Shown here: one piece after another, positions 13,163 to 17,360 of the stretch
How positions within the stretch are numbered: position 1 is the stretch's first letter
Layout: every line of letters starts with the position of its first letter
Program-made: the position numbers and the translations under genes
Notes under the pieces: generated by a model
The model's input: the letters and a program-made list of their open reading frames with translations, nothing else
Told to the model about the DNA's origin: nothing
Database searches by the model: none
NCBI GenBank assembly: GCA_012839585.1
Contig: DUNB01000075.1
Location: 1-64,000 of the forward strand
Direction of reading: 5' to 3'
Source: Alcaligenaceae bacterium
GTDB lineage: Bacteria; Pseudomonadota; Gammaproteobacteria; Burkholderiales; Burkholderiaceae_B
Length of the DNA: 64,000 nt

Positions 13163-13794
13163 TGCCAATCATCACGGTAAACAAAACGCGGCATTTGCCA
13201 GTTAAAGCGTAAGGCTAAAAACCTAAAGGTTAGGCCAACCCCCATGGGCACCAACATACTGGTGAGTTCGCTAAAGGATTGGTCAATGGCGATCAGGTAT
13301 AAGCCACCGGTCACCATGGACACACTGGCATACATTTCTTTGCGGAACAAAAGAGGAATGTCATTACACATAATATCGCGCAGTACTCCGCCCGCACAGC
13401 CCGTAATCATGCCACTAAGCAGCACGATGGTAATGGGCAATTCCATTTCTAAGCCAATCTGACAGCCAATCACCGTAAACGTGACCAGACCTAAGGCATC
13501 CAACGCCAAGAACAGCTTGTGTAAATGACGCATCAAGCGTGCCGTCAAAGCGGTAAAAATGGCTGCGCCCGCTGTCATCCATAAATACTCAGGATGAGCG
13601 ACCCAAGTCAGTGGGTAATGCCCTAGCAACACGTCACGTACCGAACCGCCGCCCAGGGCCGTGATACAAGCGATCACGCACACCCCTACCCAATCCATAT
13701 CCCGCTTGCCCGCTGCCAAAGCGGCGGTCATCGCTTCGGCGGTAATCGCAATCAAATAAAAGGTAAGGAGCAACATGGGCTTACACCTGAGCAT
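13159..13794 (-). CDS. Trimeric intracellular cation channel (TRIC/YadS-like) family protein
   Basis: AEAMTAALAAGKRDMDWVGVCVIACITALGGGSVRDVLLGHYPLTW...GGVLRDIMCNDIPLLFRKEMYAS. Confidence 0.92.
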   Translation of the reverse strand: MLRCKPMLLLTFYLIAITAEAMTAALAAGKRDMDWVGVCVIACITALGGGSVRDVLLGHYPLTWVAHPEYLWMTAGAAIFTALTARLMRHLHKLFLALDALGLVTFTVIGCQIGLEMELPITIVLLSGMITGCAGGVLRDIMCNDIPLLFRKEMYASVSMVTGGLYLIAIDQSFSELTSMLVPMGVGLTFRFLALRFNWQMPRFVYRDDWH

Positions 13795-15013
13795 CCAATG
13801 CTATAAGCGTCGCTCGCTTGCGCCACAGCAGCCATAAGCCAGGCAAAGCGAGTAAGACGGTGACTAAAAAGAAACTCGGCCAGCCTAGTGACTCCACTAA
13901 AGGAGGCGTCAGCGGCCCAGCCAAATAAGTGCGCCCAACGGCAGATAAGGCAGACAACAAAGCAAATTGCGTTGCAGAAAACTGTTGATTACATAAGGCC
14001 ATCAGCAGCGCCACAAAGGCTGCCGTGCCCATCCCACCACATAGGTTTTCTATGGCCACCACTACGCCCATCAGAACCACATGTGGATCGTTCACTGCCA
14101 ACACCCAGTAACCAAAATTAGAAACGGCCTGCAACACACCAAAGAGCATCAACGAGCGGTATAAACCCAACCTAGCCATTAATCCGCCACCTACTAGGGC
14201 ACCAATAATGGTTGCCGCCAGGCCGAAGATTTTATTCACCATCCCCACCTGCGACACATCAAACCCGGCCCCACGAATCAAAAAGGTCGTGGACAGAGCC
14301 CCAGCAAACGCATCACCCACTTTATACAACACGATTAACAATAAAATCGTGATGGCCTCGGGGCGTTTAAAAAACTCTAACAATGGTTCTACCACCGCAC
14401 TACGCAGGGATCGGGGAGGCTGCACAACCACCTCGGGCTCTGGGGCGATAAAGGTAGCCACGGCACACAATCCCATGATCAGCCCCATCGCCATATACAT
14501 TCCGTTCCAGCCCAACCACTGATCCGCAATCACTAAGGCAAAGCCGCTGGAAACGATCATAGCGAGCCTATAGCCGAGCACCTTAACGGCAGCACCAGCC
14601 GCCCGTTCCGTGCTGCGTAATACATCGGTGCTGTACGCATCAAACGCAATGTCTTGGGTCGCGGACATAAAGGCCACAAAAACAGCCAGTAAAGCAATCA
14701 GCCCCAATTGGGCTCCAGGGTCAAACAGCCCCATCGCCGCAATAGAAAGAGCTAATAGCAGTTGGCTTAATGCAATCCAACCACGACGACGCCCTAAGAA
14801 AGGCACCGCATAACGATCTAATAAGGGCGCCCACAAAAACTTCAACGTGTAGGCCGAACCCACCAAAGTCAGAAAGCCAATCTGAGTTAGAGACACACCG
14901 GCCACGGTTGCCCAGGCCTGCAAGGTACCACTGGTTAGGGCCAAGGGCAGACCGCTGGCAAAGCCTAACACGAGTAAGGGGAGCACACGTGGGCTCAGAT
15001 AGACATTAGACAC
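13781..15013 (-). CDS. AmpG-family MFS transporter (muropeptide permease-like)
   Basis: LVLGFASGLPLALTSGTLQAWATVAGVSLTQIGFLTLVG...KFLWAPLLDRY...ATQDIAFDAYSTDVL. Confidence 0.9.
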   Translation of the reverse strand: MSNVYLSPRVLPLLVLGFASGLPLALTSGTLQAWATVAGVSLTQIGFLTLVGSAYTLKFLWAPLLDRYAVPFLGRRRGWIALSQLLLALSIAAMGLFDPGAQLGLIALLAVFVAFMSATQDIAFDAYSTDVLRSTERAAGAAVKVLGYRLAMIVSSGFALVIADQWLGWNGMYMAMGLIMGLCAVATFIAPEPEVVVQPPRSLRSAVVEPLLEFFKRPEAITILLLIVLYKVGDAFAGALSTTFLIRGAGFDVSQVGMVNKIFGLAATIIGALVGGGLMARLGLYRSLMLFGVLQAVSNFGYWVLAVNDPHVVLMGVVVAIENLCGGMGTAAFVALLMALCNQQFSATQFALLSALSAVGRTYLAGPLTPPLVESLGWPSFFLVTVLLALPGLWLLWRKRATLIALDAQV

Positions 15014-15027
15014 CGCTAGTACCGCGC

Positions 15028-15651
15028 TTAACGTACTGCATACGGCGACTCAAATCGATACACCGCCAGTGTTCCGCGCAAGCCGGGGAGTAAACGCACC
15101 TCTTTTTTGCCATCAAACACCACGCGATCTAAGATGCGCAAGCCCAAGGCTTTGGCTAAGTCCTGAAAGTCTCGTAAGGTACACAGATGAATGTTAGGCG
15201 TGTCATACCACTGGTAAGGCATTTCTTTAGAAACAGGCATGCGTCCAGCCAAAATAGATAGGCCATGGGACCAGTGACCGAAGTTAGGAAAGGACACGAT
15301 GCCGTAACGGGCGACCCTGGCCATTTCGCGCAAAATATGCTCGGTGTTAATCATGGACTGCAGGGTTTTAGAAAGCACCACCGTATCAAAGTGTTGATTT
15401 TCAAATAGGGCCAGCCCCTCTTCGAGGTCTTGCTGTATGACCGACACCCCACGACGCACACTGGCCACCACCGCCTCTGGATCACGCTCGATGCCAGAGC
15501 CATGAACATTTTTAGTGCGCTGTAAATAGGCGAGCAATTTACCATCCGCGCAGCCCAAATCCAGCACATGGGTAGAGGGCTCTATCCAGCTCGCGATACG
15601 AGCCAAGTCAGGACGCTGGGCTAGACTGACTGCATTTGCCGTGGTCTTCAT
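15028..15651 (-). CDS. metW: Methionine biosynthesis protein MetW
   Basis: [31 protein letters not shown]...[10 protein letters not shown]; downstream of and overlapping metX by 4 nt. Confidence 0.94.
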
Positions 15652-16868
15652 GCCAATACTCCGGTAGTGCGCTGACGGGCTCCTAAGCCTAGTTGCTCTG
15701 CAATCTGATCGTAATAACCCTGCACTACGCCGTGGTAATGACGGTCATCTAATAAGAACGCATCGTGTCCGTGTGGCGCATCAATTTCTGCGTAGGTCAC
15801 TGACCTTTTGTTTTTTAACAACGCCTGGGCAATTTCGCGTGAGCGCTGTGGCGTAAAACGCCAATCCGTCGTAAACGAGATAAGCAAAAACTTTGCTTTA
15901 ACTGCCGCTAAGCTCTGGGCCAGGTCCCCATTATATTCTCGGGCAGGATCAAAATAATCCAGCGCTCGTGTAATCAATAAGTAGGTATTCGCATCAAAAT
16001 ACTGCGAAAACTTTTCACCCTGATAGCGCAAATAGGACTCAACCTCGAACTCTACCCCGTAGTCGTATCGATAAGCACCATCGTCTTTGGGATCGCGTTG
16101 GGTGCGGCCGAATTTTTCCGCCATCATCTCGTCAGATTGATAGGTAATATGTCCAACCATTCTGGCGACCGACAGACCTCTTTTGGGCACGGTATTACGA
16201 CTGTAATAGTCCCCTTCGTAGAACTCAGGGTCTGTAATAATGGCGCGTCTAGCCACCTCGTTAAAAGCAATATTCTGGGCGCTAAGTTTGGGCGTGCTGG
16301 CGATCACAATGCAGTTCTCAAGGCGATCAGGACAGGTAATGGCCCAGCTAAGCGCTTGCATACCGCCCAATGACCCCCCCATCACTGCAGCAAATTTCTG
16401 AATGCCCAAATAGTCCGCTAGACGCGCTTGGGCATGTACCCAATCCTCTACCGTCAGTAGCGGAAAGGCGGCACCCCAAGGTTTGCCGGTGGCTGGGTTA
16501 AGGCTGGCCGGTCCGGTAGAACCAAAACAAGAACCAATATTATTAACGCCTATAACAAAAAAACGATCTGTATCCACGGCTTTGCCTGGGCCCACCATGT
16601 TGTCCCACCAACCTACGTTTTTAGGGTCCTCGGGATCTATGCCCGCCACGTGATGCGAGGCATTGAGCGCATGGCAAATTAAGACCGCATTACTACGATC
16701 GTGATTGAGGGTGCCATAGGTTTCAATGGCTAATTCGTATTGGGGTAATGTCTGACCGCTGGATAGCAAAAGCGGCTCGTCAAAGGCGATAATTTCAGGC
16801 GTGACCACACCCACTGAGCCATCGGAGGTAACAGTAGAAGAATGCAAAGATGAAGTATTTGAGACCAT
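15648..16868 (-). CDS. metX: Homoserine O-acyltransferase MetX
   Basis: [55 protein letters not shown]. Confidence 0.95.
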
Positions 16869-16872
16869 GTGT

Positions 16873-16935
16873 GGACCTCTTTAGCTGGATTTATGGAGCG
16901 CCCGCAAGCGGATCAAAGCAAATCGGCGCCAACAA
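16873..16935 (-). ncRNA. SAM-II-like riboswitch immediately upstream of metX
   Basis: Minus strand GGCGCCGATTTGCTTTGATCCGCTTGCGGGCGCTCCATAAATCCAGCTAAAGAGG; matches the recalled SAM-II core (GCGC..GAUUU...UUGC..GCGC..AUAAA..AGCUAAA..GG), ending at the RBS. Confidence 0.85.
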
Positions 16936-17144
16936 TAGGTAAGTAATAAGTGTAGCACCTTCATCCGCAAAATCCAGATCCCCTAGCAGGGAAAGCCCCT
17001 CATCGCCAAGTGTGAGAAATACGTAAGGATTAATACTAGATAAGAAAGGCTTGAGGTTTTTCCGAAAGCGGCAAACAATCCACCTAGATGTAACAAACCA
17101 AGACGGAAATGATTTTTATCTCTTTATTTCTCAAGGAATAAAAA

Positions 17145-17360
17145 ATGATTAAAAAACCCTTAAGCCCTAAAGAATATGAATGTTTGCACTGGGTCGCTCT
17201 GGGCAAAACCAATTATGAAATCAGTGTCATTCTAGGGTTGAGCAGTCACACCGTTAACTTTCATTTACGAAACATCTACTCCAAGCTGAACGTCTCTAAC
17301 CGCCCTGCGGCTATCACCAAGGCCTTTAACGCCTCGATTCTTAAACCACCTCTTAACTAA
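17145..17360 (+). CDS. Stand-alone LuxR-type helix-turn-helix protein (71 aa)
   Basis: LSPKEYECLHWVALGKTNYEISVILGLSSHTVNFHLRNIYSKLNVSNRPAAITKA is a complete GerE/LuxR HTH with no N-terminal sensory domain. Confidence 0.85.
   Translation: MIKKPLSPKEYECLHWVALGKTNYEISVILGLSSHTVNFHLRNIYSKLNVSNRPAAITKAFNASILKPPLN

Follow-up and report, generated by a model that had tools for sequence, protein, structure and literature searches.

Three genes follow one another on the minus strand of the window, the 64,000-nucleotide stretch of DNA from an Alcaligenaceae bacterium analysed here: metX, encoding a 406-residue protein of the homoserine O-succinyltransferase type (15648–16868; NF047916, 665.8 bits against a cut-off of 560); metW, the start of which overlaps the metX stop by 4 nt (15028–15651; TIGR02081, 261.7 bits against a cut-off of 189.5); and, 14 nt after metW, the gene of an AmpG-type muropeptide transporter (13781–15013; NF008867, 664.3 bits), which is probably carried on the metX–metW transcript. 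Directly upstream of metX–metW, in sense orientation and reaching the in-frame metX ATG at 16868, is an element assigned here as a SAM-II aptamer with an overlapping, predicted translational expression platform (16868–16933, minus strand; matched by RF00521 and by a lineage model, R1). Between metX and the glutamate–cysteine ligase gene lies a 71-residue open reading frame (17145–17360, plus strand) comprising a LuxR-type (GerE) DNA-binding domain alone (PF00196, E 3.9e-20).

At the head of the leader, all features of which are on the minus strand, is an extended −10 promoter-like motif recognized by reading the sequence, TGCTACACT (16949–16957), from which transcription would be expected to start about 10 nt before P1. 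In 32 of 33 Alcaligenaceae metX loci (L009–L041) the aligned element is preceded, at a distance of 22–44 nt, by a TGnTAnnnT motif; a generic sigma-70 scan gave no promoter at the leader, though the conserved extended −10 motif is visible. The P1 hairpin, placed by the RF00521 structure line and by covariation, is formed by GGCGCC (16925–16930) and its partner GGCGCT (16897–16902), with an outer G-U pair. Between the two strands are L1, GATTTG (16919–16924), equivalent to G8 and U10–U12 of the structure 2QWY (residue roles from PMC3764141); the P2a 5′ strand GATC (16911–16914), placed by the alignment register; and, from alignment and covariation, TTGC, which holds the P2b 5′ strand and the G22 and C23 equivalents and is followed by G16903 of a tertiary pair (16903–16907). 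Beyond P1 come the A-rich strand of L3, ATAAATCC, with C16887 as the 3′ partner of that tertiary pair (16887–16894; alignment and covariation); GCTAAA (16880–16885; alignments A2 and A4), equivalent to G42–A47, of which U44 and A47 contact SAM (PMC3764141); and GAGGTC (16874–16879), read as a Shine–Dalgarno sequence GAGGT overlapping the P2a 3′ strand GGTC.

P1 (GGCGCC with GGGCGC/U), GATTTG, TTGC, the A-rich strand and GCTAAA thus keep the order and spacing of SAM-II (the metA element; RF00521, SAM_alpha), with which the leader shares the P1 hairpin, the H-type pseudoknot P2, the invariant GATTT/TTGC/GCTAAA pocket and a methionine gene downstream. A preliminary description of this DNA had proposed such a layout within 16873–16935 from a minus-strand sequence that is present at 16930–16876, and the end-to-end RF00521 alignment bears it out. 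Its pseudoknot, CTTT with AAAG, was drawn in the wrong register: that of SAM-II has two P2b pairs (U16907–A16881 and U16906–A16882) and four P2a pairs (G16914–C16874, A16913–U16875, U16912–G16876 and C16911–G16877). Nor is the CTTT/AAAG strand a conserved feature, since GCTTTGATC in L1 of the window copy has an extra T that the nearest relatives, with GCTTGATC or GCCTGATC, lack.

RF00521 aligns end to end with 16939–16860 at 32.1 bits, below the family cut-off of 36, with an E-value of 1.9e-5 over the whole 2.3 Mb genome, in which the runner-up scores 16.6 bits. R1, a covariance model built in this analysis from 50 burkholderial sequences (alignment A2), gives the element 73.2 bits (E 3.0e-17; runner-up 17.0 in the same genome), a score that is partly by construction as the window sequence is among the 50, whereas counts over other genomes are unaffected. 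Both matches stand well clear of chance. Genome-wide, R1 finds this one copy, and a search of plasmids for the element gave no match. A cmscan of the window at gathering thresholds reported a single tRNA and nothing else, and the remaining Rfam families score at chance level around the element. The preliminary description had named a cmsearch score under the threshold as grounds for giving up the assignment; the score is indeed under it, but the element is the best place in the genome and the shortfall arises because RF00521 is skewed to Alphaproteobacteria. Relatives from the same genus or family score 28–46 bits, on both sides of the cut-off (36.2–39.5 bits for the close relatives above it), and the top copies in other classes of the phylum, which follow the alphaproteobacterial consensus, reach 80–90 bits. 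By sequence and structure, the element is best described as a genuine member of the SAM-II class, ordinary for its order.

Covariation was examined in 45 betaproteobacterial and alphaproteobacterial sequences. P1 is paired in 97.8% and three of its six pairs are changed on both sides (CG–UA, CG–GC, with the outer pair occurring in six types), and the covariation score of the structure is 0.275, against at most 0.108 for every shuffled and every slid version. The window P1, GCGCC/GGCGC, differs from the CGUGG/CCACG of alphaproteobacterial SAM-II. The tertiary pair G16903–C16887 is G-C in the window and the other betaproteobacteria and A-U in the alphaproteobacteria used, both sides switching together, a pattern consistent with the extra Watson–Crick pair predicted in SAM-II by mutual information (PMC2258182). 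P2b is invariant. P2a, with four pairs in the window (one G-U), is paired in 70.6% of the sequences and changed on both sides at three of its four pairs; it is the weakest part of the SAM-II assignment. The differences between the two classes may reflect few evolutionary events, and the six types at the outer P1 pair occur mostly within the betaproteobacteria.

These properties, namely homology, P1 covariation, pocket letters, gene context and the overlap of P2 with the Shine–Dalgarno sequence, were computed for the window leader, and from them we infer SAM binding, the direction of control and the coupling of metW to metX. The leader very probably contains a SAM-II riboswitch that works as an OFF switch at the level of translation. 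In the absence of SAM, P1 would be formed and the 3′ strand GCTAAAGAGGTC, which in the window holds both the pocket strand and the Shine–Dalgarno GAGGT, would be held weakly, leaving GAGGT accessible and metX translated. Abundant SAM would bind in a triplex of L1 (GATTT), TTGC and GCTAAA and lock P2; GGUC would then be tied to GAUC in P2a, the Shine–Dalgarno sequence, 6 nt before the AUG, would be buried, and metX would be repressed, with metW likewise through coupling. This burial by SAM-stabilized P2 is predicted from the anatomy and from the Agrobacterium tumefaciens member, in which SAM binding and the need for P2 were demonstrated (PMC1273637).

When folded with nested pairs only, the leader has its Shine–Dalgarno sequence paired with codons 1–4, opening of which costs about 5.8 kcal/mol, so the SAM-free state may be just partly open. 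A weak start-codon hairpin (16858–16879, minus strand; GAGGUCC with GGUCUC) competes with P2a, and hairpins like GGUC(N5)GACC recur in many Alcaligenaceae. As a selected competitor of P2 this hairpin was considered and set aside: 34 of 42 are more stable than shuffles, yet selection is not claimed because the mean z is small (−0.57) and the sequences are related.

The expression platform sets the window apart from other SAM-II members. Unlike in alphaproteobacterial SAM-II, the P2 3′ strand is here the Shine–Dalgarno region, and the start codon lies 8–14 nt past GCTAAA in all 33 Alcaligenaceae loci (L009–L041; 11 nt in the window), a spacing too short to hold a terminator. Neither in the window nor in the Alcaligenaceae loci is the element followed by a terminator-like site. 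Taken together, the entry of P2 into the Shine–Dalgarno sequence and this spacing make SAM-driven translational repression the best mechanism for the Alcaligenaceae. In other families of the order the start codon is farther off, about 38–157 nt in most, and strong intrinsic terminators stand behind many copies (−13.9 kcal/mol or lower in 14 metX loci). In a subset of these relatives the terminator carries an 8–12-nt perfect complement to the aptamer strand GTTCAGCTTGCG/CAGCTTGCG, plausibly an antiterminator; the pairing is strong in that subset and modest on average (6.8 versus 5.6 nt). The same aptamer might therefore be thought to act in the window by transcription termination, or through Rho, as in most other Burkholderiales, but with the compact layout common to all 33 Alcaligenaceae loci and no terminator-like site after the 11-nt spacer this is improbable. 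Translational control in the window accords with the earlier proposal of a SAM-II-type riboswitch leading metX–metW with its pseudoknot running into the ribosome-binding site, which the model matches, the gene families and the uniform spacing uphold.

All the SAM-pocket letters of 2QWY (U10–12, U20, U21, G22, C23 and G42–A47; PMC3764141) are present in the window element. GCTAAA is invariant in alignments A2 and A4, although A2 was collected with a pattern demanding the pocket letters, so that its invariance is not independent evidence. Better evidence, even if its elements were located with R1, comes from metX loci picked by protein, in which GATTTG, TTGC and GCTAAA are kept in 67 of 67 full-length aligned matches.

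A diverged relative with another ligand, either SAH or SAM and SAH alike, could be suspected from the burkholderial P1 and loop lengths, which are unlike the alphaproteobacterial consensus, and from the missed family cut-off; it is very unlikely given that every SAM-contacting residue is unchanged, that the SAM/SAH, SAH and SAM-V families have no match near the element at E ≤ 10, and that the assayed SAM-II member rejects SAH (PMC1273637). Elsewhere in the genome there is no credible SAH riboswitch (top RF01057 match 18.6 bits). SAM-V (RF01826) and SAM-II long loops (RF01726) are related pseudoknot SAM sensors; neither matches the window stretch at E ≤ 10. There is similarly little chance that the copy has decayed, its pocket spoiled by the extra T in L1. 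That base is absent from the nearest relatives and the RF00521 score is below theirs (32.1 versus about 36), but all pocket letters and pairs are intact and the same L1 length recurs in locus L031 (GCACTGATCC) and in the alphaproteobacterial locus L146 (GAGCCGGCC).

Such elements are widespread in the order. The preliminary description held a betaproteobacterial copy to be notable, a view that does not survive the published record or the counts: a Bordetella bronchiseptica sequence is in the founding SAM-II alignment (Corbino 2005, PMC1273637), betaproteobacterial SAM-II was discussed by Barrick 2007 (PMC2258182), and Meyer 2009 (PMC2704228) places SAM-II in Alpha-, Beta- and Gammaproteobacteria. 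RF00521 at E ≤ 0.01 matches 184 of 399 Burkholderiales genomes (69 above the cut-off), and R1 finds the element in 297. Among 80 metX loci gathered by protein similarity alone, 68 have it upstream of the gene (R1); those without are mostly from Massilia, Duganella and Pseudoduganella, in one the contig stops close to the gene, and the metX element has apparently been lost in these lineages and a few relatives. The loci lacking it include L043, L046, L060–L062, L064, L067, L072, L078, L082 and L085.

Within the order, SAM-II copies stand before metX, metZ, metK, metH and a gene of the cystathionine gamma-synthase family, usually with a terminator at metZ, metK and metH; copies with a terminator precede metK (L132, L137) and metH (L145), and a copy precedes the cystathionine gamma-synthase family gene at L130. 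In the metX copies L042, L044, L055, L059, L063 and L081, which belong to Burkholderiaceae and Oxalobacteraceae and are missed by RF00521 and RF01726 alike, an extra hairpin inserted into L3 separates P1 from the A-rich strand. Tandem SAM-II aptamers with a terminator after the first (L183:1522–1754 and L187:1531–1692) precede short genes that have no Pfam family.

Part of this distribution is recorded under other names. In the regulon study of Leyn 2014 (PMC4239095), SAM_alpha is placed in Rhizobiales and Rhodobacterales alone, betaproteobacterial metK and metY are left without a known methionine regulator, and a 'metXZ' element, which in betaproteobacteria precedes metXW or metZ, is called new, the metX leader being treated as a terminator/antiterminator element. 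As described there, the metXZ element shares with SAM-II the metXW and metZ genes, the lineages, Alcaligenaceae included, and six conserved blocks with pseudoknot pairings 1–4 and 2–6 as in P1 and P2; it has a downstream terminator, which is absent from the window and the Alcaligenaceae loci and present in other families. On the genes, lineages and topology reported in that study, rather than on alignment, the metXZ element is most likely SAM-II.

The second name is RF02424, the Burkholderia sRNA Bp2_287, for which Khoo 2012 (PMC3521395) reported an RT-PCR product and proposed a cis-acting methionine element. RF02424 matches the leaders of relatives on the opposite strand (for example L050:2716–2855, 47.3 bits; further matches at L182–L188 and L190), and 8 of 10 fetched matches cover the R1-defined SAM-II element in antisense. 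When reverse-complemented, its consensus reads GCGTCGATTTGATTTCAGCTTGCGGACGC...CAGCTAAAGC, a SAM-II element with P1 GCGUC/GACGC. RF02424 spans the SAM-II leader of burkholderial metX or metZ together with its terminator but models them as an sRNA on the other strand, and from its sequence it appears to be the reverse complement of that leader plus terminator. That the window leader is such a small RNA instead of a riboswitch is scarcely credible, the relatives' matches and the RT-PCR product notwithstanding, given the opposite strand, the reverse-complementing consensus, the cis-acting role favoured by the family's own authors and the lack of any RF02424 match in the window's genome at E ≤ 0.01.

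SAM-II, RF02424 and probably metXZ appear to be three descriptions of one element; a limited literature search found no paper equating SAM-II with RF02424 or with metXZ. It is probable that SAM-II, rather than a separate metXZ element or sRNA, is the widespread methionine regulator of metX, metZ, metK and metH in Burkholderiales, acting mostly via terminators and purely by translation in the Alcaligenaceae, and partly hidden under the RF02424 and metXZ names because the Rfam cut-off misses most copies.

The window copy itself is to be expected, SAM-II being standard equipment in Burkholderiales, and what makes it interesting is mainly the confused naming of its relatives. Rfam appears to hold a wrong-strand duplicate of the SAM-II riboswitch as an sRNA family (RF02424), and a betaproteobacterial SAM-II model would mend annotation in hundreds of genomes. 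SAM-II copies precede metK, metH and metZ in the order, where the 2014 study left metK and metY of betaproteobacteria without a known methionine regulator. With one aptamer and two expression platforms, Burkholderiales offer a natural comparison.
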